Below are positions 1-57,573 of a stretch of 64,000 nt of DNA, one piece after another. Position 1 is the first letter of the stretch. Each line of letters opens with the position of its first letter. Source of the stretch: Nocardioides baculatus. GTDB lineage: Bacteria > Actinomycetota > Actinomycetes > Propionibacteriales > Nocardioidaceae. Made by a program: the position numbers and the translations under genes. A model generated the notes under the pieces. The model saw only the letters and a program-made list of their open reading frames with translations, did no database searches and was not told the origin of the DNA. The stretch spans positions 62,001 through 126,000 of the forward strand of contig NZ_JAERSG010000005.1 in the NCBI RefSeq assembly GCF_016735675.1, given 5' to 3'.

Positions 1-901
1 ACACCGACCAGTCGGGGGCGTAGGTCGCGGTCGAGAGGCGCAGCTTGCCGTCGTGGAACGGGTTGCCCTCGACCTTGTCCCAGCGGCCCACCTTGAAGAG
101 CTCGGGGTCGGAGGTGTCGCGCGCCTCGCCCATCGTCAGCTTCCCGTCGGACACCTCCATCGGGACCATCGTCAGGGGTGCGCCGCCGGAGAAGCGCTGC
201 TCGCTGGGGTTGAGCAGGACCAGGAGGTACGTCCGGTCGCCGTCGGCACCGAAGAGGGTCGGGAGCACGTCGGCGAGCGGCTTGGCGCGCCGGGCGTCGC
301 GGGCGAGCGGGGCGACCACGTCCGTCGCCTGGTCGCGTGCCTCGGCCAGCATCGTCCCCACGCCGAGGGCCGAGTCGTTGACCTCGCCGAGCTCGAGCTG
401 AGCGGTGTCGAGGTGGAGGCTGACCTCCTCGACCGAGGAGACGAGCGTGCGCAGCGTCGGCACGTCGATCGACTGGTCGGCGAAGAGCGTCGCGTCGTCA
501 CCGTCGACGGCCGGCCAGGCGGCGACGGCGATCTCGGCGGCCGAGGTCATGTTGTCGAGCGCGTTGCCGAGGTGGCGTACGTCCGAGACGGGCTCGCCGA
601 CGACGGGGACCAGGCTCCAGATGTCGCCCCCGATGCCCTGCATCGCCCCCTGCACCTCGTCAGCGTGCTTGCGGGCGCTCTCGATCGCCGTCTGCGCCGC
701 GGCGACGTCGCCGCTGCTGAGCGACACCTTCGCGGACTCGAGGTCGGCCTTCGCCGCCTTGGCGTTGCCCGGCGCCTTGAGGAAGGGGATCGCCAGGAGC
801 GCGAGGCCGATCAGGAGCAGGACGAGGACCGAGATGATCGTGCCCGGCCGCAGCAGCCGTCGTCGCCACGTGCTGGCGGACGGACGACGGGTGGACGGCA
901 T
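1..901 (-). CDS. DUF4012 family membrane-anchored protein, partial (3' end off window)
   Basis: The frame is open from an ATG at 901 to the left edge, giving about 300 residues without a stop; the C-terminus lies outside the window. A basic N-terminus ([11 protein letters not shown]) leads into one membrane helix at about residues 21-41, then an Ala/Lys-rich helical stretch (45-90). At 226-243 the segment [15 protein letters not shown] matches the conserved LLL-N-E-R-GG type motif of DUF4012. Family function is unknown; members are single-pass envelope proteins, often beside polysaccharide genes, which fits here. It is transcribed divergently from rmlA, 53 nt away. The start could be another upstream codon, but none is better placed. 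Its long antisense frames are shadows. Confidence 0.8.
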
Positions 902-941
902 GCCCACATGGTGCCAGCACGGTCCGCAGGTCGTGGCCCCT

Positions 942-11710: not shown

Positions 11711-12121
11711 CTAGGCCGAGACCTCGGTGCCGTTGACGAGGGTGGCGGCCAGGTCGCGGAGCTTGGTGTTGGTGCGCTGGCTGGTCTCCTTGAGGACGGT
11801 GAGCGCCTCCGCCTGCCCGATGTTGCGGCTGGCCATCAGGATCCCGAGAGCGGCCCCGATCGTGCGCGACGATGCGAGCGCCGCCTCCAGCTCCGCGACG
11901 TGTTCCTGCCGGACCACCCCGTCGGTGTGGAGCTCGGCGATGAGCTCGCGGTCGATGACGGATCGCGCCTCCAGGTCGTCCGCCCGGTCACGGGCGGCAT
12001 CGGCGCGCAGGTCGGCCGCGTCGGCGCGCTCGGTCAATCCCTGGATGTCGTCGCGATTGCTCTTCACCTGGGCGACGAGCTGGTCGATCTGCCGCTGCAG
12101 ATCGTCGTACTGATCGTTCAC
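11711..12121 (-). CDS. Coiled-coil ANTAR-domain protein
   Basis: A 136-residue protein with a heptad-like N-terminal coiled coil (about residues 5-80, rich in D, R, A, L). A C-terminal ANTAR domain follows (about 85-136): SRTIGAALGILMASRNIGQAEALTVLKETSQRTNTKLRDLA. ANTAR domains bind paired hairpins in nascent RNA and prevent termination. There is no receiver or PAS domain, so a signal would come through the coiled coil or a partner. The GTG at 12121 is chosen; an upstream TTG frame extension would run into an 18-bp palindrome. It follows the HPr-kinase-like gene on the same strand with a 39-nt gap, so may be its co-transcribed regulator. Confidence 0.8.
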   Translation of the reverse strand: MNDQYDDLQRQIDQLVAQVKSNRDDIQGLTERADAADLRADAARDRADDLEARSVIDRELIAELHTDGVVRQEHVAELEAALASSRTIGAALGILMASRNIGQAEALTVLKETSQRTNTKLRDLAATLVNGTEVSA

Positions 12122-12137
12122 GAGAGCATTTTGCCCA

Positions 12138-12155
12138 TGCCTTGTGCACAAGGCA
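12138..12155. promoter_or_regulatory. Perfect 18-bp palindrome TGCCTTGTGCACAAGGCA
   Basis: It lies in the short gap between the HprK-like stop and the ANTAR start, on the same operon strand. With no loop it looks more like a protein-binding operator than a terminator. Confidence 0.5.
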
Positions 12156-12160
12156 ATAGG

Positions 12161-13219
12161 TCAGCCGGGTGGAAGCAGCAGCCCGTCGCCGGCCAGCAGG
12201 GCGAGCGCGTCGGCCACCAGCGCCCCCGCCTCGGGATGCTCTCCCAGCACCGCGGTGGTCGACGCGACGAGCTCGTCGAGAGCCTGGGGGACCTCCAGTG
12301 CGACCCACAGCAGGAGGCCGAGCCCCGCGAGCACGCGGACCTCGGCATCGACCATCAGCACGACCTCCTCGTCGTACTCGACGGCGTCGACCCACGCCGC
12401 GCGGCGCCACGCACCCGCGACGGGCTCGGTCGCCGGTCCGCCGGGGTGGTGCCGGCGGGCCGGGCTGGGGCGTGGCTCTCGGTCGAGCAGCCCGACGAGG
12501 TCGTCGAGCCGCGCCCCGATCTCGCGGTAGCGGAGGCTCCAGACGCCCCCGCAGGCGTCGATCGTCTCGGCGAGCCGCAGGATTGGGTCCTCGAGGCGGA
12601 GCAGGGAGGACGTCTGCGCGACCACCTCCGCGATGGCGTACGCCGGATCAACAGGCACGAGCCCGGCGTCGTCGTCGCCGCGGTGGAGCAGCACGATGCG
12701 GTGGAGGTGGGACTCGGCGGGAGGGCTGAGGAGCCCGGCATCATCGGGCGACAGCGACTTCTTGAGGTGGGGCTCGTCGGGGTCGGTGATGACCGACAGC
12801 GGCTTGGGGTGGCCGTGCACGAGCAGCGACTCGTCGAGGGAGACGGTCTCGTCGGAGAGGTAGCCGAGCCGGGTGGCGAGCAGTCCGATCGCGGTCGTCT
12901 TGCCGGAGCCGGACGGCCCGATCACGGCGAGCACGCGGCCCCGCTCGTCCGCGACCGCGCCGGCGTGGAGGTTGATCCGGAGCCCCGCGGTCGCGTCGAG
13001 CGCCGCCATCGTGACCAGGGAGGTGACGGCGTAGTCGTGGGCGATCTCGTGCTCGATCTCGAGGTGGTCGAGCTGCACCACGGTCGCCGGGTCGCGGTCG
13101 GTCAGCGAGCGGCTCCACTGGTGCCGGAGCCGGGCAGCGGCCTCGCCGGTGACGGGGATGCCCACGGGCACGCCGAGGGCCTCCACCACCACCTCGGGAG
13201 AGACCTCCTCGCTGCTCAC
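12161..13219 (-). CDS. HPr kinase-like P-loop protein fused to a PqqD-like domain
   Basis: A 352-residue protein. The N-terminal 90 residues are of unknown type. Then comes LHAGAVADERGRVLAVIGPSGSGKTT with Walker A at about 101-109 and GYLSDETVSLD, the D-E pair after the P-loop typical of HPr kinase/phosphorylase relatives. The segment from about residue 275 to the end (VVLMVDAEVRVLAGLGLLLW ... LALLAGDGLLLP) has the winged-helix pattern of PqqD, the RiPP recognition domain. So a kinase-like core carries its own recognition domain. Neighbours are a free PqqD and a nucleotidyltransferase, as in the HPr-rel-A gene sets near exosortase/polysaccharide loci and in lasso-peptide kinase clusters (recalled). 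Start: GTG at 13219, 7 nt after TAGAGT; a GTG at 13228 is the alternative. The substrate is unknown. Confidence 0.75.
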   Translation of the reverse strand: MSSEEVSPEVVVEALGVPVGIPVTGEAAARLRHQWSRSLTDRDPATVVQLDHLEIEHEIAHDYAVTSLVTMAALDATAGLRINLHAGAVADERGRVLAVIGPSGSGKTTAIGLLATRLGYLSDETVSLDESLLVHGHPKPLSVITDPDEPHLKKSLSPDDAGLLSPPAESHLHRIVLLHRGDDDAGLVPVDPAYAIAEVVAQTSSLLRLEDPILRLAETIDACGGVWSLRYREIGARLDDLVGLLDREPRPSPARRHHPGGPATEPVAGAWRRAAWVDAVEYDEEVVLMVDAEVRVLAGLGLLLWVALEVPQALDELVASTTAVLGEHPEAGALVADALALLAGDGLLLPPG

Positions 13220-13226
13220 GCCGGTC

Positions 13227-13236
13227 ACTCTAGGGT
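13227..13236. promoter_or_regulatory. Back-to-back leaderless -10 boxes sharing a CTAG-like core
   Basis: ACTCTAGGGT contains TAGGGT (13231-13236, plus strand), 7 nt before the VanZ GTG. It also contains TAGAGT (13227-13232 read on the minus strand), 7 nt before the HprK-like GTG. The two boxes overlap by two bases, so the two transcripts should compete for polymerase. Confidence 0.5.
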
Positions 13237-13243
13237 GGGCGGC

Positions 13244-13696
13244 GTGGGGTGGGTCGGCGATCGCAGGTACGTCTTCGCGTTGCTGACGACCTACGGGGTG
13301 GGTCTCGCCATCCTCGTGACGCAGCCGTGGGGCTGGGAGCTGAACCGGCTGACGGTGCGACTGTGGGTGTTCTTCCGGCACGACGTCCCCATCGCCCCGG
13401 GCCGCGTCTCGCCGGAGGACTACGGCGTGCTGCTCAACGTCCTGCTGTTCGTGCCCTTCGGCGTGCTGCTGACCCTGGCGCTCCGTCGGCCCTGGTGGTG
13501 GGTGACGACCGCTGCCGCCTTCGTGGTGTCCGCCCTGATCGAGCAGGCGCAGTGGCGCTGGCTGGAGCGGGACGGCAGCTGGGGCGACGTCGCGGCCAAC
13601 ACCGTCGGCGCGCTGCTGGGGGCCGTGGCCGTCAGCCTGCCGTTGCGAGCCCGAGCGCGACCAGCTCGTCGAGCAGGGCCAGCACGTCGCCCCTGA
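13244..13696 (+). CDS. VanZ-like membrane protein
   Basis: A 150-residue membrane protein with about four helices. It shows LLNVLLFVPFGVLLTLAL and ALIEQAQWRWLERDGSWGDVAANTVGALLGAVAV, the N-L-F-P-G and D-N-x-G-x-G features of the VanZ family. VanZ relatives are often found in exopolysaccharide loci; their biochemical role is unclear. The GTG at 13244 is chosen because TAGGGT lies 7 nt upstream; GTG 13235 is in frame but overlaps the box. Its 3' end overlaps the convergent PqqD-like gene by 65 nt, unusually much, so the Arg/Ala/Pro-rich last 20 residues may be a recent extension. Confidence 0.75.
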   Translation: MGWVGDRRYVFALLTTYGVGLAILVTQPWGWELNRLTVRLWVFFRHDVPIAPGRVSPEDYGVLLNVLLFVPFGVLLTLALRRPWWWVTTAAAFVVSALIEQAQWRWLERDGSWGDVAANTVGALLGAVAVSLPLRARARPARRAGPARRP

Positions 13697-13916
13697 TCTC
13701 GTCGGGATCGATGCCCCACAGGAGCGCGGCCGCCGCGACGATGTCGTCGTGCGAACCGTTCTCGGAGAGCGCCAGCCACACGACGCAGGCCGGGCCGTTC
13801 AGGGTGGTCGGTGGACCCTGGGGCAGCCGCGTCACGTAGGCGCAGGGCATCCCCTCGGCGTCCAGCTCCTCGTGGCTCACCCAGGCCACGTCGTCGGCTA
13901 TCCGGTAGGTCGTCAT
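13632..13916 (-). CDS. PqqD family protein (free-standing RiPP-recognition-type domain)
   Basis: A 94-residue winged-helix protein. LNGPACVVWLALSENGSHDDIVAAAALLWGIDPDEIRGDVLALLDELVALGLA matches PqqD: a beta-hairpin with L-N-x-x-x, W-x-x-L, then three helices ending in L-x-x-x-G-L. PqqD-like domains bind leader peptides and hand them to modifying enzymes. No obvious precursor peptide gene lies next to it. Its ATG overlaps the nucleotidyltransferase stop (ATGA), so the two are coupled. It belongs with the HprK-like/PqqD fusion 0.4 kb away. Confidence 0.8.
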   Translation of the reverse strand: MTTYRIADDVAWVSHEELDAEGMPCAYVTRLPQGPPTTLNGPACVVWLALSENGSHDDIVAAAALLWGIDPDEIRGDVLALLDELVALGLATAG

Positions 13917-14785
13917 CGGCGCGTGACCCGCCGCGCGAGCTCGTCGGCCGCGCGACGCAGCCGTCGCAGCTGGCGCGAGCGGACCTCCTGCCGCGTCGGC
14001 GCGTGACCGAGCTCCATCCGCAGGTGGTCGCGGTTGACGCGGAGGGCGGAGGTCAGGAGATCGGCCTTGGCCCGGGCGCCGGGCGCTGCAGCGAGCCGAG
14101 CGCGCCACTCGTCCAGCCGGGTGCCGCCGTGCACGAACTGGTGCCACAGCGCGTACGTCGGCGCCCCCCGGTGCAGCTCGAGCTCCCCGATGCCTGCGGC
14201 GAGGGCGACCTCGGCGCCCAGCTCGGCCGTCAGCGCACGCACCTCGGCCTGCTCGGCGGGGTCGGCGGCGTCCCACGCGCCCTCGACATCGGGACCTCCG
14301 CCCGAGCGGGCGGCGTGGAGGACGAGTACGAGACGCTGCGCCGTGCGGCCGGGGACGGGGCACGCGCGGTGCGCGATCGGGTGCCGGACGCTGTCGCGGG
14401 ACAGCACCTCGAACGCGCGCTCGGAGTCGATCGTGACTCCGGGCCACGACACGTGGACGTCCACCCAGCCCCAGTGGTCGTGCCACCAGTTGGCGGCGTG
14501 CGCGAAGACCGACCCGGTGGCGAAGTCGGTGCGCTGCTCGAAGCCCACCGACTCCAGGGACGCGACCAGCACGTGGAGGTGGGAGGGCCGCACGAGCACG
14601 TCGACGTCGCTCGACTGGCGGCCGTCCGCCCGCAGTCCGGGGAGGACGGCCGGACCTTTGAGGTGGAGCAGGTCGATCCCGCGGTCGTCGGCCAGCTTCT
14701 GCACCACGGCGTGGGCGAGGTGGACACGCGCCGCGATCGGCATCTGGCCCGTCGCCGCGCTCGCCTCCTGGGTCATGGGGGCCAT
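13913..14785 (-). CDS. Nucleotidyltransferase family protein (NTP_transf_5 type)
   Basis: About 290 residues. The LLHLKG segment and the SSDVDVLV motif (about residues 58-65, the D-x-D metal site of the fold) identify the uncharacterised nucleotidyltransferase family often paired with HPr-kinase-like and PqqD-like proteins. WWHDHWGWVDVHVSWPG follows, with the third acidic residue likely in VDVHV. The C-terminal half is helical and Arg-rich. The start is uncertain: ATGs at 14785 and 14776 and a GTG at 14842 are all in frame; no clear ribosome site decides. It is coupled by ATGA to the PqqD gene and diverges from the tyrosine autokinase gene. Substrate (protein, peptide or sugar) is unknown. 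Confidence 0.75.
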   Translation of the reverse strand: MAPMTQEASAATGQMPIAARVHLAHAVVQKLADDRGIDLLHLKGPAVLPGLRADGRQSSDVDVLVRPSHLHVLVASLESVGFEQRTDFATGSVFAHAANWWHDHWGWVDVHVSWPGVTIDSERAFEVLSRDSVRHPIAHRACPVPGRTAQRLVLVLHAARSGGGPDVEGAWDAADPAEQAEVRALTAELGAEVALAAGIGELELHRGAPTYALWHQFVHGGTRLDEWRARLAAAPGARAKADLLTSALRVNRDHLRMELGHAPTRQEVRSRQLRRLRRAADELARRVTRR

Positions 14786-14846
14786 CGTGCCAGCAGCGCG
14801 CCCGGCGGTGTCCGTCGTTATGACCGGACGGCAGCGTGTCACGGCC

Positions 14847-14852
14847 TAGACT
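14847..14852 (+). promoter_or_regulatory. Leaderless-type -10 box of the tyrosine autokinase gene (TAGACT)
   Basis: TAGACT, 7 nt, then the ATG at 14860. It decides against the GTG-type extension at 14836. Confidence 0.5.
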
Positions 14853-14859
14853 CGCGAGC

Positions 14860-16353
14860 ATGACGTTTGCCGATTTCGTCCGGCTGAGCCGCGCCTACGT
14901 GTGGGTGCTCATCGGCTGCACGATCCTGGGCGCCCTCCTGATGATCGCCAAGACGACCCGGGAGCCGGTGCTCTACGCGGCGACCTCGTCGGGCCTCGTA
15001 CGGGTCGGCAACGCCACCGACGCGGGCACGGAGCAGGGCAACAGCCAGCTCGCGGAGGACAAGGCCAACCTCTACGCCTACCTCGCCACCAAGACCCCGG
15101 TGGCCCAGGAGGTGATCGACGAGCTCGACCTCGACGTCCCGCCGGCCGCCATCGCCGGTCGTTTCACGCCGTCGGTCGACGCGGACGTCAACGCACTCAC
15201 CATCACGGCGATCGGGACGACTCCCGAGGAGGCGCGCGACCTCGCCAATGCTGTGGTCGAGGCGGTGGTCGTCGTGGCGAAGGAGGTCGACGGCGACACC
15301 GGCCTCACCAAGATCATCCCGCTCGAGCCGGCCGAGCTGCCGGGCGCGCCGTTCACGCCCGACTACGAGAGGGCGGCGATGAAGGGAGCGGCTGGTGGCC
15401 TGGCCATCGCCTACGCCTTCCTGATCGCGCGTCGCCTGATCGACCGGAAGGTGCGGTCTGCCAAGCATGTCGAGGAAGCGACAGGGGCGGCCGTGCTCGG
15501 CGTGATCCCCAAGGAGGAGGTCCTCGGTCGCAGCAACCGCGGGGTGCGGGGCGACCTCGGGAAGGCGGCCGAGGCGTTCCGCCAGCTGCGCACCAACCTC
15601 CGCTTCGTCGACATCGACAACGAGCCGCGCAAGATCGTGGTGACCTCGGCCCTGCCCGGCGAGGGGAAGTCGACCGTGTCGTCCAACATCGCGCGCCTGG
15701 TCGCGCAGGCCGGCACCAAGGTGCTGCTGATCGACGCCGACCTGCGTCGGCCGATGATCGCCACCACGTTCGAGGTCGACGGGGCCGTCGGCCTCACTCA
15801 GGCCCTCGCCGGCGACATCGACGTGACGGACGTGATCGTCGAGTCCGGGATGGCCAACCTCAGCCTCCTCCCCGCCGGTCGGATCCCGCCCAACCCCAGC
15901 GAGCTGCTCGGGTCGCTGAAGATGAAGCAGATGATCGACGACCTCGCGGTCGACTACCTCGTCATCCTCGACGCCCCTCCGCTGCTGCCCGTCACCGACG
16001 CCGGCCTCCTGTCCGCCTTCTGCGACGGAGCCCTCCTCGTGCAGGCGTCGGGCAAGACGCAGATCGAGCAGAGCCAGCACTGCCGCCGGATCCTCGACCA
16101 GGTCGGCAGCCGGCTGCTGGGAGTCGTGCTCAACAAGGCCCCCGTGAAGGGCGCCAACGCGATCGTCTACGGCGGCGGTTACGGCGGCTACGGCGGCTAC
16201 GGCGGCGGGTACAAGTCCGAGTACAAGGCACTCGACGCCTACTCCACGGCCGGCAAGGGCCGTCGGCGTAAGTCGGCTGCAAAGACCGACAAGACCGGCA
16301 AGGTCGACAAGGCCGCTCGCACGAGCAAGGCGGAGAAGGCGACCAAGGCGTGA
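14860..16353 (+). CDS. Polysaccharide co-polymerase/tyrosine autokinase (Wzz-Wzc type)
   Basis: Controls chain length and export of surface polysaccharide. Membrane helix 1 is at about 13-30, the extracytoplasmic Wzz part at 35-165 and helix 2 at 172-192. The BY-kinase domain has Walker A LPGEGKST (265-272), Walker A' LLIDADLRRP (289-298) and Walker B LVILDAPP (367-374). Seven tyrosines lie at 437-461 in a GGY-rich segment, the autophosphorylation cluster. A Lys/Ala/Thr-rich tail of about 30 residues (KTDKTGKVDK...) follows and is unusual. The sensor and kinase are one polypeptide, as in Wzc, rather than split as in many Gram-positives. It opens the polysaccharide locus and converges on the initiating transferase. 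Confidence 0.93.
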   Translation: MTFADFVRLSRAYVWVLIGCTILGALLMIAKTTREPVLYAATSSGLVRVGNATDAGTEQGNSQLAEDKANLYAYLATKTPVAQEVIDELDLDVPPAAIAGRFTPSVDADVNALTITAIGTTPEEARDLANAVVEAVVVVAKEVDGDTGLTKIIPLEPAELPGAPFTPDYERAAMKGAAGGLAIAYAFLIARRLIDRKVRSAKHVEEATGAAVLGVIPKEEVLGRSNRGVRGDLGKAAEAFRQLRTNLRFVDIDNEPRKIVVTSALPGEGKSTVSSNIARLVAQAGTKVLLIDADLRRPMIATTFEVDGAVGLTQALAGDIDVTDVIVESGMANLSLLPAGRIPPNPSELLGSLKMKQMIDDLAVDYLVILDAPPLLPVTDAGLLSAFCDGALLVQASGKTQIEQSQHCRRILDQVGSRLLGVVLNKAPVKGANAIVYGGGYGGYGGYGGGYKSEYKALDAYSTAGKGRRRKSAAKTDKTGKVDKAARTSKAEKATKA

Positions 16354-16369: not shown

Positions 16370-17791
16370 TCAGTAGGCTCCGCGGCTGCTGACGACAGCG
16401 CTGACGGTGCGCGCCAGGATGAGCAGGTCCTGCACCATCGACCAGTTGTCGACGTAGTAGAGGTCGAGCCGGACGGTGTCCTCCCAGGACAGGTCGGAGC
16501 GACCGGAGACCTGCCAGAGACCCGTCATGCCGGGCAGCACGTTGAGCCGGCGCAGCATGTCGTCCTCGTACTGCTGGACCTCGGACGGCAGCGGCGGTCG
16601 AGGACCGACGAGGCTCATCTCGCCACGGAGGACGTTCATGAGCTGCGGCAGCTCGTCGAGCGAGAACCGGCGGATGAAGCGTCCGGGCTTGGTCACCCGG
16701 GGATCTTCGGTGCTCTTGAAGAGCACGTGGTCGCGCGCCTCGACCTCCGTCAGTCGTTGCTCGGCGTCCACCGACATCGAGCGCAGCTTGAGGCAGGTGA
16801 ACTCCGCCCCCTCCCGCCCGACCCGGGTCTGCCGGAAGAGCGCCGGTCCGCCGTCGTGCCTCTTGATCCACAGCATCAGGCCGAGGAGCAACGGCCACAG
16901 CACGGCGAGGATCGCCAGCGCGCCGACGACGTCGAAGGCACGCTTGGCGTCGTTCGTGGCCAGCTGCGAGCGCGAGCGGCCCAGGTGCATGAGGGGCAGC
17001 CCAGCGACCGGGCGGATGCGCACCCGCTCGCTCGACACGTCGGTCACGTTGGGTGCCACGATGATCTGCACGTGGGCGTGGTCCTCGAGGTCCCACGCGA
17101 GGCGGCGCAGAGCCGTCGAGGAGCTCACCGCGCCCGCGGTGAAGAAGACGATGTCGGGGTTCAGCTCGTCGACGACCGCCCGCACCTCCTCGCTGTGCCC
17201 CAGCACCGGGATCCCGGTCGACGTCGTCTCCAGCCCCGCGTAGTCGCTCGGGACGAGGCACCCCATCACCTGGTAGCCGAGCCACTTCTCGCGGGCCAGC
17301 ACCGTGTGGATCTCGCCGATGTAGCCGGGCGTGCCGACCAGCAGCACCTTCTCGTTGAAGTGTCCCGCGGCCCGGAACCTCTGGATCAGCCGTCGGGTCA
17401 GCAGCCGGCCGAGGACGAGCAGGAGCACGCCGATCGGGAAGAGCAGGACGAAGAACCCGCGGGAGAGCGGGTACTGCATGAGGAAGGCCATGGTGGCCAC
17501 CAGCGCCGCCGTGAAGAACGACGCGTTGACGACGAGCTTGAACTCCTCGGTCCCGGCGCCGAAGACGTCCAGCTCGTAGGTTCCGAAGAAGACCAGCATC
17601 ACCAGCCAGGTGCCGACGAAGAAGACGCTGGCGAGTGCTGAGTTCTCGAGGACGTCGCCGGCCGTGTCGAAGATCGACAGCGAGACCCGGAAGCGGATCG
17701 CCAGGACAGTCGCTATGGCGATCATCGCGAGGTCCATGGTGCCGACCAGCCACGGGAGCAGCTTGATGCCCTCAGGGCGCATGCGGTCCAC
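16370..17791 (-). CDS. Initiating sugar-1-phosphate transferase (WbaP/WcaJ-type polyprenyl glycosylphosphotransferase)
   Basis: Puts the first sugar-phosphate on undecaprenyl phosphate. The 473-residue protein has four N-terminal membrane helices (about 12-135), a central Rossmann-like CoA-binding-type domain (KVLLVGTPGYIGEI...), and a C-terminal catalytic domain. The latter begins KRAFDVVGALAI with its membrane insert, then LFRQTRVGREG, KLRSM, the D-P-R-x-T motif, FSLDELPQLMNVLRGEMSLVGPRPPLP and LPGMTGLWQVSGRS. All catalytic features look intact. It is the last gene of the long minus-strand operon and overlaps the preceding glycosyltransferase by 20 nt. Which UDP-sugar it uses is not evident. 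Confidence 0.93.
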   Translation of the reverse strand: MDRMRPEGIKLLPWLVGTMDLAMIAIATVLAIRFRVSLSIFDTAGDVLENSALASVFFVGTWLVMLVFFGTYELDVFGAGTEEFKLVVNASFFTAALVATMAFLMQYPLSRGFFVLLFPIGVLLLVLGRLLTRRLIQRFRAAGHFNEKVLLVGTPGYIGEIHTVLAREKWLGYQVMGCLVPSDYAGLETTSTGIPVLGHSEEVRAVVDELNPDIVFFTAGAVSSSTALRRLAWDLEDHAHVQIIVAPNVTDVSSERVRIRPVAGLPLMHLGRSRSQLATNDAKRAFDVVGALAILAVLWPLLLGLMLWIKRHDGGPALFRQTRVGREGAEFTCLKLRSMSVDAEQRLTEVEARDHVLFKSTEDPRVTKPGRFIRRFSLDELPQLMNVLRGEMSLVGPRPPLPSEVQQYEDDMLRRLNVLPGMTGLWQVSGRSDLSWEDTVRLDLYYVDNWSMVQDLLILARTVSAVVSSRGAY

Positions 17792-21083: not shown

Positions 21084-22156
21084 GCCCGTGCTCCGGCGTC
21101 GGCGTACGTCGACGCCACCCGCGCGCACATCTCGGCGACGGACGGCCAGTCGACCAGGCCCGGACGCACTTCGGGCTCGAGGCCCTGGGCGGCCAGGGCG
21201 GTGGCGACGGCTCCGGAGTCGGCGGCATCGACGAGCGAGCTCGCGGGCAGGATCTCCGGGTTGCCCCCGACGGGGCTCGCCACCACGCCCATGCCGCGCG
21301 CGGCGGCGTCGAGCAGTGCGTACGAGCAGTTCTCCCAGACCGACAGCATCGCGAGCACGTCGTGCTCAGCCATGGCGACGTCGGGGTCGACGAACCCCGG
21401 CATGGCCACGGCGTCGGTGAGCGCCAACCGCGCGACCTGCGCGCGCAGCGCGGCATCCTCCGGCCCGGTCCCGGCCAACGTGAGTCGCGCCTCCGGGTGC
21501 GTCCGGTGCAGCGCGGCGAAGCCGTCGACCAGTGCCGGGAGCCGCTTCTCCGGCGACAGTCGTGCGAGCGACAGCACCCGCAGTCCGGGTTCCCTTGATG
21601 GTTGAGGTGCGAGCGGAGCGAGCCTCGAAACCACGTCGACGCCGTTGGGGATGACGGTGATCGGCACCTTCGGGTGCCACTTCTGCACCATCGCGTCGGC
21701 GGTCGCACGGCTGACGGCGATCGCCGCGTCGAAGCGCCGCATCCGGGCGGTGTGCGCGAGCGCCATCACGCGGCCCTTGGCCGTCGAGCGGTGGTAGACC
21801 ACGTCGTCGCGGGCGATGCCGTGCTCGGTCGTCACGAGCCGCGGCCCGCGCACGACGAGGGCCGAGACGATGTCGGCGTAGGCCAGGTGCGTGTGCACGA
21901 CCGCCGGACGCTCACGGCGTACGACCTTGCGCAGCGTCCGCGCGGACGACCGCAGCCCGTGCGCCGGTCCGAAGTCGCCCTCGACCACCTCGGCGCCGAC
22001 CGCGCGCAGCTCGCGCGGCAGGTCGCCGGGCGGGGTCAGGAACACCAGCCGCCAGCCAGGGATGCCGTTGCGTGCCACGTCGAGGACGTGGCGCGCCACC
22101 CCGGCCAGGTCGCTCACCGGGATCGCCCAGAGGGCGGTCGGCTGCGTCAGAACCAT
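21080..22156 (-). CDS. Glycosyltransferase family 4 with an in-frame repeat element
   Basis: A 358-residue GT-B protein: TALWAIPVSDLAGVARHVLD, VVHTHLAYADIVSALVV, TEHGIARDDVVYHRS, VIPNGVDV, then LARLSPEKRLPALVDGF and SVWENCSYALLDAAARGMGVVASPVGGNPEIL. Between the PNGVDV turn and the donor domain lies an unusual run VSRLAPLAPQPS. It is encoded by a 35-bp quasi-palindrome at 21599-21633 that looks like a mobile intergenic repeat inserted in frame. This is normally a variable loop, so the enzyme is probably still active. The ATG overlaps the end of the NeuB-fusion gene by 10 nt. Confidence 0.88.
   Translation of the reverse strand: MVLTQPTALWAIPVSDLAGVARHVLDVARNGIPGWRLVFLTPPGDLPRELRAVGAEVVEGDFGPAHGLRSSARTLRKVVRRERPAVVHTHLAYADIVSALVVRGPRLVTTEHGIARDDVVYHRSTAKGRVMALAHTARMRRFDAAIAVSRATADAMVQKWHPKVPITVIPNGVDVVSRLAPLAPQPSREPGLRVLSLARLSPEKRLPALVDGFAALHRTHPEARLTLAGTGPEDAALRAQVARLALTDAVAMPGFVDPDVAMAEHDVLAMLSVWENCSYALLDAAARGMGVVASPVGGNPEILPASSLVDAADSGAVATALAAQGLEPEVRPGLVDWPSVAEMCARVASTYADAGARA
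21599..21633. repeat. REP-like 35-bp quasi-palindrome inside a glycosyltransferase gene
   Basis: TGGTTGAGG at one end mirrors CCTCGAAACCA at the other, around a core with GCGAGC given twice (GCGAGCGGAGCGAGC). Such a layout is that of small palindromic repeats usually found between genes. Here it is read in frame. Confidence 0.55.
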
Positions 22157-24420
22157 TGCTCCAGCCGCTCCAGGGCGATCCAGAAGCCCTCGCCGTCGTT
22201 GACGTGGCCCTGCCAGATCTCGGGGATGAAGCTGACGCCCGGCGACATCGTGTCGAGCTGCTGCGCGAGGACGGCCCAGTCGATCTCGCCGTCGCCGACC
22301 TGCACGCCCTCGCCGTCGACGCCGGTCGCGTCGACGAGGTGGAGGTGCTCGCTGTGCGGCGCGAGGAGGTCCGTGGCCTCGGCGAACGACATCCCGAGGT
22401 AGTTGGCCGAGAGCTTGGAGTGAGAGACGTCGAAGCACAGCCGCCGGGCGTGCTTCTCGGCGAAGGCCGCGGTGTCGCGCGGGTCGACGAAGAGGTTGCA
22501 GTAGAGCTGGCCGCCCATGTACCAGGGGTAGGGCGGCAGCGTCTGCGCGCAGAGGCGTACGCCGGAGTCGTCGACGCGGGCGAGCCCGGCGGCCACCCGG
22601 TCGTACATCGCTTCCCTCTCGGCCGGGGTCACGAAGGCGTCGGTCGTGAACCCGCCCAGGCTGGCCACGATCACCGGTCCCTCGGTCTCGCCCTTCGCGT
22701 CGGCGCTCCGCGTGAAGTGCTGCTGCATCTCGCGCGTCGTGTCGACGACGCGCTGGAGCTCGCGGATCGAGCGCTCCCAGTGGTCGTCGTCGGTGGAGGC
22801 GAGGTTGAGCAGGAAGTCGCCGGCGAAGAGGTCGGGGGAGTGGGTGGTGAAGCCCATCGGCAGGCCGCCGGGGTACTTCGCGAAGACCTCCGCGACCGGC
22901 AGGTCGAGGTCCTTGTAGGAGAAGTGGAACTCCAGGAAGTCGGGGGTGGTGTCCTTCGTCATCGCGTCGACGTCGTGGTAGCGGACGGCCAGCCCCCAGG
23001 GGCGGCGGAAGTCGTAGGCGCGGCCGTGTGGCGCCGCATCGCCGAGGTCGGTGGCGTAGAAGAAGTCACCGGCCTCGAGGGCTCGCGTCGTCGTGCGACC
23101 CACGAGCTTGTCGTACGCATTGGGCTGGAGGCCGCGGCCGGGGCTCTTGATGTCGATGTCGGCGTCGGTGAGCGTCTCGCCGACCTCGATCCGGCGGGCG
23201 GCGACGAGCGACTTGGCGAGGTTGACGCGGTTCATCATCTCGCCGGTGGAGACCGCGCGCGGCGCCGCGGTGCCGAGTGCCTCCTCGATCTCGCGGACGC
23301 GCTGCACCATCTCCTTGAACTCGCCCGGCAGCAGGCTGACCTTGTGGTCGTTGCCCTCGAGGCCGCGGTCGATGGTGAAGTGCTTCTCGATGATCCGCGC
23401 GCCGAGGGCGACTGCCGCGACCGGGACGTGGAAGCCGCGCTCGTGCCCGGAATAGCCCACCGGTGCCTGGGTCAGCTCGGCGAGTCGCGTGAGGTAGGCG
23501 AGGTTGATGTCCTTGAAGGGCGCCGGGTAGGTCGACTGGCAGTGCAGGAAGGCGTGCGCGACGCCGGTGCTGCGGACCACCTCGACGGTCTCGCGGATCT
23601 CGCCCTCAGTGGACATGCCGGTCGAGATGACCATCGGCGTCCCGCTCGCGGCCATGTGGCGCAGGAGCGCGTGGTTGGTCATGTCGGCGGAGGCGACCTT
23701 GAGCGACGGGACACCGTAGTCGACCAGCCGGTCGACGCTGACCGGGTCCCACGCGGTGCACATGACCTCGATGCCGGCGTCGCGGCAGTGGTCGAAGACC
23801 TCGAAGAGCTGGTCGGCCTCGAGGTTGTACTTCGCGAGGAGGTCGAGGGTGTACTGCGGACCCAGGTCCTCCCCGCCCGAGCCCGACGAGCCCTGGCGGT
23901 AGACCGACTCCATGTCGCGGAGCTGGAACTTGACGATGTCGGCGCCGGCCTCGACGGACAGGTCCACGAGCTGCTTGGCCAGCGAGACGTCGCCCTGGTG
24001 GTTGATGCCGATCTCGGAGATCAGCACCGTGGGCGCGTCGGCGGCGACGACGTGGCGGCCGATCCGCAGCTCGTCGGCGCGGTTGATCGCGATCGCGACG
24101 AGGTGGCCGCGCTCGTCGACGAGGGCGACGTGGTCGATGCCGGAGCCGAAGGCGTGGGAGATCTCGGCGGGGCTGCTGCCGATGGGCAGGCTGCGCGGCG
24201 AGGTGTTGGCGGCCTCGATGGCCGGCACGTCGACGGTGAGGCTGGCGGCGCCGCTCACCCAGCGGCGGAAGTCGCCGTCGGACAGCACACCGTCGAGGTG
24301 GCCGTGCGAGTCGACGAGGAAGATCACTCGCGCCTGGTTGGCGGTGATCTTCTCCAGCGCGCGCAGGACCGGGTCGCCGGAGTAGACGACGTAGGGCGTG
24401 AGGTCACGCTCGATGATCAA
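22147..24420 (-). CDS. Nonulosonate synthase fusion: CBS pair - NeuB - SAF - TIM-barrel
   Basis: A 757-residue four-part protein; ordinary NeuB is about 340-350. Residues 1-125 resemble a tandem CBS module (ARVIFLVDSHGHLDGVLSDGDFRRW; HVALVDERGHLVAIAINR). Residues 130-375 are the NeuB barrel: EIGINHQGD, AGADIVKFQ, STGMSTEGEI, LHCQSTYPAPF, GYSGHERG, IIEKHFTIDR, DHKVSL. Residues 400-460 are the SAF/antifreeze-like domain. Residues 470-757 are a second barrel of the xylose-isomerase/AP-endonuclease-2 type (FSYKDLDLPVAEVFAKYP, CFDVSHSKLSANYLGM, HLHLVDATG). NeuB condenses PEP with a six-carbon amino sugar to a nine-carbon sialic-type acid. The CBS part suggests nucleotide control. The second barrel could epimerise or isomerise a precursor. 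Product identity (Neu5Ac, legionaminate or other) is open. Confidence 0.88.
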   Translation of the reverse strand: MIIERDLTPYVVYSGDPVLRALEKITANQARVIFLVDSHGHLDGVLSDGDFRRWVSGAASLTVDVPAIEAANTSPRSLPIGSSPAEISHAFGSGIDHVALVDERGHLVAIAINRADELRIGRHVVAADAPTVLISEIGINHQGDVSLAKQLVDLSVEAGADIVKFQLRDMESVYRQGSSGSGGEDLGPQYTLDLLAKYNLEADQLFEVFDHCRDAGIEVMCTAWDPVSVDRLVDYGVPSLKVASADMTNHALLRHMAASGTPMVISTGMSTEGEIRETVEVVRSTGVAHAFLHCQSTYPAPFKDINLAYLTRLAELTQAPVGYSGHERGFHVPVAAVALGARIIEKHFTIDRGLEGNDHKVSLLPGEFKEMVQRVREIEEALGTAAPRAVSTGEMMNRVNLAKSLVAARRIEVGETLTDADIDIKSPGRGLQPNAYDKLVGRTTTRALEAGDFFYATDLGDAAPHGRAYDFRRPWGLAVRYHDVDAMTKDTTPDFLEFHFSYKDLDLPVAEVFAKYPGGLPMGFTTHSPDLFAGDFLLNLASTDDDHWERSIRELQRVVDTTREMQQHFTRSADAKGETEGPVIVASLGGFTTDAFVTPAEREAMYDRVAAGLARVDDSGVRLCAQTLPPYPWYMGGQLYCNLFVDPRDTAAFAEKHARRLCFDVSHSKLSANYLGMSFAEATDLLAPHSEHLHLVDATGVDGEGVQVGDGEIDWAVLAQQLDTMSPGVSFIPEIWQGHVNDGEGFWIALERLEQWF

Positions 24421-24492
24421 CGCAGAGGCCTTCCGTGGGTGGTGGTGCGCCTCAACCGTAAAGGGACGAGCGACATCGCGCGGTCAGTCTGG

Positions 24493-25164
24493 TCAACGCG
24501 CCGTCAACAAGCGCGCCGCAAGGGCGACGTCCAGCTCGGTGTCGATGTCGATGCCCTCGTCCTCCGCCATCACGAAGAGACCGATCCGTCCGCCGAGCCG
24601 GTTGTCCTGCTCCTCGTAGACCTCGGTGCGGGTGACGTAGAGCGAACCGGTCTCCCGATAGCGCCGCGTGGACTCCGTCAGGTCCTGCCGGCGTGGACGC
24701 GCTGTGACGTCGTACGCCGCCGAGGGCGGGTCTCCCGCCTGCCAGATGAACGGCGGTTGCTCGACCACGCCGACCATCGAGTCCACGCCGGTGGCCGTGA
24801 ACTCCGTCAACGCTCGCGCGAGCGTGTCGGCGTGGCGCACGGGCGAGGTGGCCTGGAGCAGCATCACCGCCTCCGGGCGACCGCGGTCGGCACTCACCTG
24901 CTCGATGGCGTGGCGGACGACCGGCTCGGTCGGCGTGGTGTCCTGGGCCAGGTCGGCTGGTCGCAACCACGGCACCCGGGCGCCGGCCGCGCGCGCGACC
25001 TCGGCGATCTCCTCGTCATCGGTGGACACCAGGACGTCGAGGCCCGGGACGGCCAACGCCTGCTCGATCGTCCAGACGATCAGCGGCTTGCCGGCCACGT
25101 CGAGGAGGTTCTTGCGCGGCACGCCCTTCGAGCCGCCCCGGGCGGGGATCACGCAGAGCGTCAT
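24493..25164 (-). CDS. neuA: CMP-nonulosonate (sialic acid-type) cytidylyltransferase
   Basis: Activates the nine-carbon acid with CTP. The 223-residue protein begins CVIPARGGSKGVPRKNL, the CTP-binding signature of NeuA/KdsB-type enzymes. VLVSTDDEEIAEVARAAGA, LLQATSPVRHADTL, RRYRETGSLYVTR and DIDTELDVALA follow, all in register with NeuA rather than KdsB. It overlaps the upstream gene by ATGA and lies 72 nt from the NeuB fusion. NeuC-type epimerase and other early steps are missing from the window. Confidence 0.9.
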   Translation of the reverse strand: MTLCVIPARGGSKGVPRKNLLDVAGKPLIVWTIEQALAVPGLDVLVSTDDEEIAEVARAAGARVPWLRPADLAQDTTPTEPVVRHAIEQVSADRGRPEAVMLLQATSPVRHADTLARALTEFTATGVDSMVGVVEQPPFIWQAGDPPSAAYDVTARPRRQDLTESTRRYRETGSLYVTRTEVYEEQDNRLGGRIGLFVMAEDEGIDIDTELDVALAARLLTAR

Positions 25165-50909: not shown

Positions 50910-51647
50910 ATGTGGAGAGTGAACGACGTCGGTATCTCGGAGCGCGCAGCCACCCGTCGCACGGTCGTGCGAGGCGCAGCCTGGACCCTCCCGGTGGTGG
51001 CGGCAGCCACGGCCGCTCCCGCCTTCGCGGCTTCCGCCTGTCCGAACAGGACCGCCCTGCTCCCGGTGACGTGGTCGGCGACCTCGACCACGACCAGCCA
51101 GAGCGGGACCACGACCACCGGAGCGACGGTCACCGTCAGTGCTGCCTACACGCAGGCGGGTGCCGCTCCGGGCTCCTTGGGGACGAACAACCTCAGCGCG
51201 CAGACCGCAGCCAGCACCCGCGACTCCTTCGCCATCGTCAACAACTCGCCGGCGACCCTCCTCGGCGACCCGGCGACCAACTTCCAGACGGTGACGTTCA
51301 CCTTCCTGCAGCCCGTCTACGGACTGACGTTCTCGATCGACGACATCGACCGGGGTACGGGCTACTGGGACTACGTGAGCCTGACCGCCACTCCGAGCCA
51401 GACGCCGTCGGCCGGCTACGGCAACCCGACGACGATCACGGGCGCCGGGACCGATACGAGTCCCTGGCGCACCACAGTGACCACGGGGGGTGACAACCTT
51501 GCGTCGCAGTCCGTCGCCGTGACGTACGCGAACGGCGCCGTCGGCGTCACCCAGGTGCGACTCAAGTTCTGGTCGACCACCCAGACCGCGACGTCGGCAA
51601 TACACCTCCTGCGACTGAGGCAGATGTCGTTCCGCACCTGCGCCTGA
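50910..51647 (+). CDS. Tat-signal exported protein, paralogue group A
   Basis: A 245-residue exported protein of unknown function. Twin arginines at 16-17 (ATRRTVVRGAAW), hydrophobic core and APAFAAS cleavage at about residue 40. The mature part has a Thr/Ser-rich start, then FLQPVYGLTFSIDDIDRGTGYWDYVSLTATP and LKFWSTTQTATSAIHLLRLRQMSFRTC, suggesting an all-beta domain with a C-terminal Cys pairing with the N-terminal Cys. It is homologous to the exported protein at 56.7 kb (LVFTITDIDSSTDD in place of LTFSIDDIDRGTG). Start uncertain: ATG 50910 or GTG 50919. Confidence 0.7.
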   Translation: MWRVNDVGISERAATRRTVVRGAAWTLPVVAAATAAPAFAASACPNRTALLPVTWSATSTTTSQSGTTTTGATVTVSAAYTQAGAAPGSLGTNNLSAQTAASTRDSFAIVNNSPATLLGDPATNFQTVTFTFLQPVYGLTFSIDDIDRGTGYWDYVSLTATPSQTPSAGYGNPTTITGAGTDTSPWRTTVTTGGDNLASQSVAVTYANGAVGVTQVRLKFWSTTQTATSAIHLLRLRQMSFRTCA

Positions 51648-53918: not shown

Positions 53919-54482
53919 ATGAGTACAACCATGTTTGCTGCCCGACCGACACGGCGCACCTTGGTGCGCGGAGCTGCCTGGAGCGTGCCTGTCGTCGCCC
54001 TCGCGGCCACGGCGCCCGCGTTCGCCGCGTCGACCGCATCGACCGATTTCACCGGCGTGGCCGGCACGGCGGAGAAGTGGAGCAACGGCAACGAGAAGCA
54101 CGTGTCGTGGGACCTGCAGCTCACCAATGGCCCGGTCGCCATCGACGAGATCCGGATCACCTTCACCTACAACCCGACCAGCACGGGGCCGTTCACGTCG
54201 TTCGAGATCTACGGCTACGCGGCGACCTCCGGTGCCCGCGACACGTCGTGGACCTATCCGGCGATCTCGACGCCGACCTCGACGCTCACGGCGACGCACC
54301 TGCCCGACATCGCGGCCAACTCGACCTACCGGCTCCACACCGACTTCGCCGGTGGTGACAACGCCGCCGGAACGGTCCAGGCGACGGCACAGATCAAGTA
54401 CGTCGGCTCGACGACGTTCGTCTCGCAGACGGTCGGTCCCATCACCTGGGATGCCGGAAAGCAGCACACCCACCCGGCCTGA
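53919..54482 (+). CDS. Tat-signal exported protein, group B
   Basis: A 187-residue exported protein with twin arginines at 12-13 (TRRTLVRGAAWSVPVVALA) and an APAFAAS cleavage region near 37. The mature domain, from about 40, is rich in Thr, Ser and aromatic residues (WDLQLTNGPVAIDEIRITFTYNP), typical of a beta-sandwich. There is no Cys pair. It shares only the signal region with the proteins at 50.9 and 56.7 kb. AGGGGAG lies 6 nt before the ATG. No function is known. Confidence 0.75.
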   Translation: MSTTMFAARPTRRTLVRGAAWSVPVVALAATAPAFAASTASTDFTGVAGTAEKWSNGNEKHVSWDLQLTNGPVAIDEIRITFTYNPTSTGPFTSFEIYGYAATSGARDTSWTYPAISTPTSTLTATHLPDIAANSTYRLHTDFAGGDNAAGTVQATAQIKYVGSTTFVSQTVGPITWDAGKQHTHPA

Positions 54483-56736: not shown

Positions 56737-57573
56737 ATGCTCAGACATAGGACGCCAGACATGACGCAGGACAGCGCCACCCTCAGCCCGGTGCGACCGA
56801 CACGACGGGTGGTCACTCGCACCGCCGTCTGGACCGTGCCGGTGATCGCGGCGGCGACGACCGCACCGGCCTACGCCGCGTCGCCGTGCAACCTGCGCGT
56901 GGGACAGGTCCTGGACTGGGACGGCTCCGCGGTCGCGTACACCAAGACGAGCGCGACGGAGGCGTACGCGGTCCTCGACCCGGACGCTGCGGGCCCGATC
57001 CCCGGCCTCCGTCTCGACGTCAAGGCGTCCTACGTGGGAAATATGGTCGCGGGCACGGAGGGCGGAGACACCAGCCAGACGATGACGCGCCAGGCCGCGG
57101 TGGGCGGTCTGAACGTGTCGGGGCTGGGCCTGATGCAGGCCACCACCTCGAGCGCGCCCAACACCCCTGCCGGGACAACCCGTGGTTACGGTGATCGCGG
57201 CACCTACACCTTCACCTTCTCGCGAGCCGTGTCCAACCTCGTGTTCACCATCACCGACATCGACTCCTCGACCGACGACTTCCGCGACGCCCTCATCATC
57301 AGCGGGGGCTACGTCGTGGAGAGCCAGGCGCCCGGGATCACGGCGATCACGAACAACAACAACCAGCCCGTCAACTGGTTCCAGGGAGCCGACGCCAACT
57401 TGCCGCAGGACGACACGGCTGGAAGCGGCGGCAACCTGCGCATCAAGTTCGCCGGACCGATCTCGACCTTCTCCATCACGTACTGGAACCGGCAGACTGC
57501 CTACGACCAGAACATCGACACGAATCAGCGGATCTTCGTCAGCGACATGACCTTCGACTACAGGCCCTGCTGA
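56737..57573 (+). CDS. Tat-signal exported protein, paralogue group A
   Basis: A 278-residue exported protein. Twin arginines at about 23-24 (PTRRVVTRTAVWTVPVIAAA) precede APAYAAS. The mature domain includes YTFTFSRAVSNLVFTITDIDSSTDDFRDALIISGG, which aligns with VTFTFLQPVYGLTFSIDDIDRGTGYWDYVSL of the 50.9-kb protein, and ends FVSDMTFDYRPC. Cysteines lie near both ends of the mature chain. ATG at 56737 has a G-run 3-4 nt upstream; ATG 56761 with AGGA 8 nt upstream is an alternative. No known function. Confidence 0.75.
   Translation: MLRHRTPDMTQDSATLSPVRPTRRVVTRTAVWTVPVIAAATTAPAYAASPCNLRVGQVLDWDGSAVAYTKTSATEAYAVLDPDAAGPIPGLRLDVKASYVGNMVAGTEGGDTSQTMTRQAAVGGLNVSGLGLMQATTSSAPNTPAGTTRGYGDRGTYTFTFSRAVSNLVFTITDIDSSTDDFRDALIISGGYVVESQAPGITAITNNNNQPVNWFQGADANLPQDDTAGSGGNLRIKFAGPISTFSITYWNRQTAYDQNIDTNQRIFVSDMTFDYRPC

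Follow-up and report, generated by a model that had tools for sequence, protein, structure and literature searches.

A kinase, PqqD and nucleotidyltransferase cassette of Nocardioides baculatus and its candidate Tat-exported substrates

Results

We examined a 64,000-nucleotide stretch of the Nocardioides baculatus genome (the window, G000:C6:62001-126000 of a source genome of 4.23 Mb in 10 contigs), in which an HprK-like kinase fused to a PqqD domain, a stand-alone PqqD protein and a nucleotidyltransferase are encoded together beside exopolysaccharide (EPS) genes (Table 1). From sequence comparison and structure prediction, we consider it probable that these genes form a protein-modification cassette guided by its PqqD-type RRE domains, and that its substrates are a family of proteins exported by the twin-arginine translocation (Tat) pathway, for which we use our own name, Tat-W. 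The original prediction for this region had proposed a peptide- or protein-modifying system that controls glycan synthesis. Protein modification is the best reading of what we found, while nothing was found in support of control over glycan synthesis.

The kinase domain of the fusion spans residues ~1–255 and the PqqD/RRE domain residues ~274–355 (window 12161-12409). No curated model's cut-off was reached by the window kinase: its match to TIGR04352 was weak (17–17.8 bits, E 0.0014–0.0018, against a cut-off of 200 bits), and all 21 kinase relatives tested matched the same model (best E 2.4e-10). Searching the PDB with the kinase profile, on sequence alone, returned only P-loop matches, after which the fold was resolved by structure prediction. 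The AlphaFold2 model of the kinase (8 sequences, pLDDT 91.9) matched PEPCK and HprK/P structures with a probability of 1.00. It shows the HprK/PEPCK fold with a P-loop and the catalytic residues expected of such kinases, H88, K110, D126 and E127 being conserved and Glu replacing the second Asp of the His-Lys-Asp-Asp set. The tail was recognized as PqqD, with 6 of 14 homologous domains matching PF05402 and a profile-profile probability of 96.7 against the stand-alone PqqD. The predicted fusion is thus upheld by its relatives, its modelled fold and the profile comparison, although its own hidden Markov model (HMM) score is weak.

The profile of the stand-alone PqqD matches the RRE structures TbiB1 5V1U/5V1V (E 3e-9), TfuB1 6JX3, LppB 9X8Z and PbaB1 9X90, and positions corresponding to C39, V67, D70 and F74 of the LppB pocket are conserved in type. 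Its match to TIGR04353 reached 20.2 bits, against a cut-off of 35 bits. The nucleotidyltransferase gene overlaps the PqqD start by ATGA, and the catalytic pattern KG..GLR..S.DVD..DvH is conserved in its product; this second PqqD and the coupled NTP_transf_5 protein were both recovered as originally predicted. A sequence-only PDB search with the nucleotidyltransferase profile gave no match. Its AlphaFold2 model (pLDDT 72) resembles LnuA, ANT(2'')-Ia and MenT1 and, more weakly, FKRP, a sugar-alcohol-phosphate transferase, so that nucleotidyl and phospho-sugar transfer are both possible.

A gene for a secreted protein, first seen in distant loci, recurs between or beside the cassette genes. The leaders of these Tat-W proteins follow the consensus [S/T]RRTVVR-AAW-xxP-VV-AxAAxAPAFA, commonly AAWSVPVVAxAAxAPAFA, with AS after the cleavage site. 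The motif logo displays the elements of a Tat substrate (S/T-RR-x-hydrophobic-x-K/R, an h-region and AxA), and Tat export is predicted. Precursors are mostly 120–400 aa long. The region had been described as lacking a precursor peptide, a claim overturned by three candidate precursors that the window itself encodes, at the other end of the locus; four more Tat-W genes lie outside it in the source genome (G000:C1:909727, C1:911369, C7:212563 and C9:101977). Profile A1, built from twelve leaders taken from distant loci, finds 1–14 leaders per kinase-bearing genome. Six Tat-W proteins, including the three of the window, had no significant Pfam match, and window candidates 1 and 3 reached no NCBIfam cut-off. 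The mature N-terminus of window-clade Tat-W proteins is often ASPC and the C-terminus often Cys (as in candidate 3), which suggests a possible disulfide closing the mature chain.

A search model cut at AxA gave 107 distinct leaders from the loci examined, and leader anatomy was read from the 99 of these with E up to 1e-8. Because the leaders were re-found with a model blind to the mature N-terminus, what follows for the second mature residue (+2) is not circular. Ser stands at +2 in 86 of the 99 leaders, at +2 or +3 in 92, and Ser or Thr in 97, whereas a control set of 86 further secreted proteins encoded in these loci, called by a crude rule, has Ser at +2 in only 6. Conservation across leader and core drops beyond +4. 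WxxPx[hydrophobic] was present in 97/99 leaders, with W exactly 16 residues ahead of the first mature residue in 96 of these 97. A docking-type motif, W-16, P-13 and V/I-11, therefore sits inside the Tat signal, and the broad pattern of RRE-pathway leaders, [Y/W]xxPx[L/V/I/F/A], was found in 97 of the 99.

A contig scan gave few distant relatives (13 loci), and the breadth of the association was judged from genome searches, with 198 genomes sampled at the family level and 276 at the phylum level. Calling the kinase at E up to 1e-12 and the leader at E up to 1e-6, we observed the kinase in 43 and the leader in 44 genomes of the family: 42 had both, one the kinase only (a weak match), two the leader only and 153 neither (Fisher p 2e-39, with genomes handled as independent though they share ancestry). 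Within the genus, the corresponding counts were 29, 0, 1 and 42. In the phylum sample, a single genome of another family (G282) held both the only further strong kinase and the only further leader, 1 kb apart. Of the 42 genomes with both genes, 18 have their nearest leader no more than 5 kb from the kinase, where chance would give 0.35, and 33 have it no more than 50 kb away, where chance would give 3.4; single-copy leaders mostly adjoin the kinase. Strong nucleotidyltransferase matches also track the kinase/leader genomes. In four genomes from other families, a remote version of the kinase (E 1e-13 to 1e-19) also neighbours a twin-arginine protein whose leader is of the (V/A)W-x-x-P type.

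Table 1. Features of the window discussed in the text (window coordinates)
Feature	Position	Strand	Details
ANTAR regulator	11711..12121	-	PF03861 E 7e-15, above Pfam cut-off
HprK/PEPCK-fold kinase with C-terminal PqqD/RRE	12161..13228	-	355 aa, GTG start; assigned by fold model and relatives' HMM matches
VanZ-family membrane protein	13253..13696	+	PF04892 E 5e-15, above Pfam cut-off; strand opposite to cassette
Stand-alone PqqD (RRE)	13632..13916	-	94 aa; PF05402 E 1.9e-8, above Pfam cut-off
NTP_transf_5 nucleotidyltransferase	13913..14785	-	290 aa; PF14907 E 3.4e-9, above Pfam cut-off
BY-kinase / chain-length determinant fusion (eps_fam)	14836..16353	+	TIGR01007 E 4e-53; divergently transcribed, constant neighbour
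Polyprenyl glycosylphosphotransferase	16370..17791	-	PF02397 E 9e-66, TIGR03025 E 1e-122; starts EPS repeat unit, constant neighbour
Candidate substrate 1, Tat-W	50919..51647	+	242 aa; leader TRRTVVRGAAWTLPVVAAATAAPAFA, then ASAC
Candidate substrate 2, Tat-W	53919..54482	+	187 aa; leader TRRTLVRGAAWSVPVVALAATAPAFA, then ASTA
Candidate substrate 3, Tat-W	56737..57573	+	270-278 aa; leader TRRVVTRTAVWTVPVIAAATTAPAYA, then ASPC

Gene order around the cassette is kept in 16 genomes of the genus: acyl-CoA dehydrogenase, kinase-PqqD, VanZ (opposite strand), PqqD, nucleotidyltransferase, BY-kinase, glycosylphosphotransferase and glycosyltransferases, with the variable EPS part beyond this block. The proposed co-occurrence with BY-kinase/EPS genes was seen in all 16 close orthologues, and the kinase adjoins a BY-kinase in 18 of 20 more distant loci (33–47% identity). 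Joint conservation of the five predicted genes in relatives, set beforehand as a refuting test, was found for the kinase, PqqD, nucleotidyltransferase and VanZ. It failed for the ANTAR regulator, which is present as predicted but occurs in only 3 of the 16 orthologous loci and was rejected as a cassette member. VanZ is also present, on the strand opposite to the rest, and was kept in 16/16 close-clade loci; because only 4 of 20 distant loci carry it, we regard it as accessory and rejected it as a core member.

In most distant loci, the kinase and its PqqD (PqqD-a) are separate genes, and the other (PqqD-b) adjoins the nucleotidyltransferase or BY-kinase. Fusions were also observed in a Propionibacterium-like metagenome-assembled genome (L078), Kytococcus aerolatus (L079) and Kocuria rhizophila (L080). 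No Tat-W protein was found in the available flanks of these three loci, of which L080 begins at a contig edge, and the L078 and L080 fusions adjoin genes resembling dTDP-sugar genes. In the remote loci L088 (6179-8992) and L093, a single run of genes encodes a PqqD, a protein of ~212–222 aa (the L088 one, of 212 aa, matched no Pfam family), the kinase, a short twin-arginine protein and the nucleotidyltransferase. Seven of the 20 distant loci (examples are L049 11658-12239, L050 10590-11153, L056, L057 and L065) also have, close to the kinase and BY-kinase, a gene resembling low-molecular-weight protein-tyrosine phosphatases.

Elsewhere in the window, a CBS-domain and NeuB-type synthase fusion (22147-25164, minus strand; TIGR03569 E 3e-93, below cut-off) is followed by a gene resembling a CMP-sugar synthetase; the probable product of this variable part of the EPS locus is a nonulosonic (sialic-like) acid. 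The protein encoded at 2-907 (minus strand), which we take to resemble a DUF4012-type EPS-associated protein, has a weak homologue (27% identity) at 6137-7864 of L053, near the BY-kinase of that locus.

Discussion

The closest known system in anatomy is LPP, described in Bacillota in a 2026 paper and stated to be restricted to that phylum, in which a discrete RRE, an HprK-like kinase and an NTP transferase are encoded in capsular polysaccharide loci (PMC13381572). There, LppA docks to the RRE by Y-16, P-13 and V-11, in keeping with a general RRE motif [Y/W]xxPx[L/V/I/F/A], and the kinase polyphosphorylates core Ser3, while a role for the NTP transferase was not found (PMC13381572). Like the lpp locus of Paenibacillus alginolyticus, the Nocardioides cassette encodes a discrete RRE, an HprK-like kinase and an NTP transferase together in a capsular/exopolysaccharide setting, alongside precursors with a conserved N-terminus and variable core, the -16/-13/-11 docking spacing and a Ser right after the cleavage site. 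However, the Tat-W leader has W instead of Y and lacks the VLxHQ..FETxxS part of YxxPxVLxHQxIxFETxxS, its leader is a Tat signal on precursors that are mostly proteins of 120–400 aa, against 35–200 aa in LPP, and the cassette has two RREs, one of them fused to the kinase. LPP also features a SipW-type peptidase and an MsbA-like exporter. The peptidase (TIGR02228) is absent from the window's genome, and in 6 relatives it is present but away from the kinase; no MsbA-like ABC exporter stood out among the genes called in the loci that we read through, although no search was aimed at one. LPP membership was rejected on the missing SipW-type peptidase and FETxxS leader.

Lasso clusters of the paeninodin/pseudomycoidin type share the Ser kinase with nucleotidyltransferase, an RRE (B1) and the [Y/W]xxP leader motif; in pseudomycoidin, the homologous kinase phosphorylates Ser and the nucleotidyltransferase adds hexoses to the phosphate (PMC8498205, PMC9266682). 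The paeninodin-type kinase has a conserved His-Lys-Asp-Asp, compared with His-Lys-Asp-Glu here, and its target Ser is C-terminal, a position not seen in Tat-W proteins, where the Ser lies near the mature N-terminus. Membership in the lasso clusters was rejected because the B2 peptidase (PF13471) is absent from the window's genome; an asparagine-synthetase-like cyclase was not noticed in the locus gene calls, no HMM search for one having been made. The HPr-rel-A set (TIGR04352/TIGR04353) likewise pairs an HprK-related kinase with a PqqD partner near polysaccharide genes, and was rejected since kinase and PqqD fall far below the curated cut-offs and neither the window's genome nor 6 relatives contain an exosortase (PF09721). 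The likeness to HPr-rel-A and lasso sets that had been pointed out is thus a resemblance short of membership, the HMM check giving matches among the relatives but leaving the window proteins below the cut-offs; the stated absence of exosortase and lasso protease was correct. Literature searches turned up no relevant paper linking PqqD to exosortase or a twin-arginine signal to PqqD or HPr kinase, nor any on HPr-rel-A. The Tat maturation chaperones DmsD and TorD are cytoplasmic proteins that read Tat signals before export, as proofreading for redox enzymes. The Nocardioides cassette differs in using the winged helix-turn-helix fold of PqqD with an associated kinase and nucleotidyltransferase. 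It is best called a variant of RRE-guided HprK-kinase systems, LPP-like in anatomy, with Tat-exported proteins as putative substrates.

We infer the following course of modification. While the precursor is still cytoplasmic, the PqqD/RRE domains would bind WxxPx[V/I] in the Tat signal, as the motif and its spacing suggest. The RRE-bearing kinase, judged by its fold, active site and homologues, would then phosphorylate Ser+2, sometimes +3, after AxA. In the least certain step, the nucleotidyltransferase, coupled to the second RRE, might add a hexose, nucleotidyl or phospho-sugar group to the phosphoserine. The folded, modified protein would leave through Tat and its signal would be cut off at AxA. 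Given the constant EPS/BY-kinase neighbourhood, the exopolysaccharide layer may be where the modified proteins come to lie, on its surface or within it.

The PqqD proteins could instead be chaperones of the Tat signal in the manner of DmsD/TorD, in which case the kinase and nucleotidyltransferase would target the RRE, or the timing of export, and not Tat-W. RREs are peptide-binding domains and the motif does sit in the hydrophobic part of the signal. We nevertheless judge this unlikely: it leaves unexplained why a Ser so rare in the controls stands at +2, past the end of the signal, and the homologous kinases of LPP and paeninodin act on the precursor itself (PMC13381572, PMC8498205). A further alternative, quite improbable in our estimate, is that Tat-W and the cassette are merely inherited together with one type of EPS locus, the real target being another, such as the BY-kinase or a glycan. 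The BY-kinase does neighbour the kinase in nearly all distant loci, and Tat-W genes of the window clade do lie in the EPS locus, at its far end; yet even those Tat-W paralogues that have no link to an EPS locus are limited to kinase-bearing genomes, and the RRE motif of the leader has the LppA spacing. The original prediction, an orphan HPr-rel-A or lasso-like set modifying an unseen peptide and regulating glycan synthesis, appears very unlikely. Every kinase tested touches TIGR04352 and PqqD touches TIGR04353, but at 17/200 and 20/35 bits these matches are far under the curated cut-offs, the genome has neither exosortase nor lasso B2 peptidase, and no unseen peptide is needed because a fitting precursor family exists in Tat-W.

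Several observations weigh against modification of Tat-W by the cassette. Leader genes of the window clade are clustered 24–39 kb from the cassette, where its EPS locus ends, and most Tat-W paralogues elsewhere in the genome are unlinked to it. One orphan leader each was found in the kinase-negative genomes G106, G114 and G167; that of G106 (L100) is without the Ser, which is kept in G114 and G167 (L101, L183), and the G114 assembly is fragmented. We rejected a threshold artefact in the leader search, as relaxing it to E up to 0.01 in 60 kinase-negative genomes returned G106, G167 and otherwise weak matches only, adding one credible orphan (G167) beside G106 and G114. Some kinase genomes (e.g. 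G147 and G197) have no above-threshold nucleotidyltransferase homologue, the RRE position matching LppB V63 is not hydrophobic, and four G054 leaders have Thr at +2, a residue that LppK rejected (PMC13381572). Finally, shared ancestry could lie behind part of the co-occurrence, a caveat that the genus-stratified count and the different genera ease without lifting.

Conclusions

Modification of Tat-W proteins by the cassette would provide a concrete partner for orphan actinobacterial sets of kinase, PqqD and nucleotidyltransferase, and for a family of exported proteins for which we found no matching Pfam or NCBIfam model. The scope of RRE-guided modification would also grow beyond small peptides, to take in whole proteins exported by Tat. 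Since an exact residue (Ser+2) and motif (WxxPx[V/I] at -16) are predicted, the proposal is directly testable with peptides and mass spectrometry. A bolder extension, which we hold as possible and somewhat doubtful, is that one signal peptide acts as both Tat signal and RRE docking leader, a bifunctional export tag by which paralogous actinobacterial surface proteins would be phosphorylated and then phospho-glycosylated or nucleotidylated beside the mature N-terminus before export, perhaps to be joined covalently to the exopolysaccharide of the adjoining locus. If true, this would be a protein-sorting and modification system like exosortase/PEP-CTERM in logic. The proposal is relevant, too, to a question that PMC13381572 left open, namely why polysaccharide loci in several phyla repeatedly contain HprK-like kinases and RREs.

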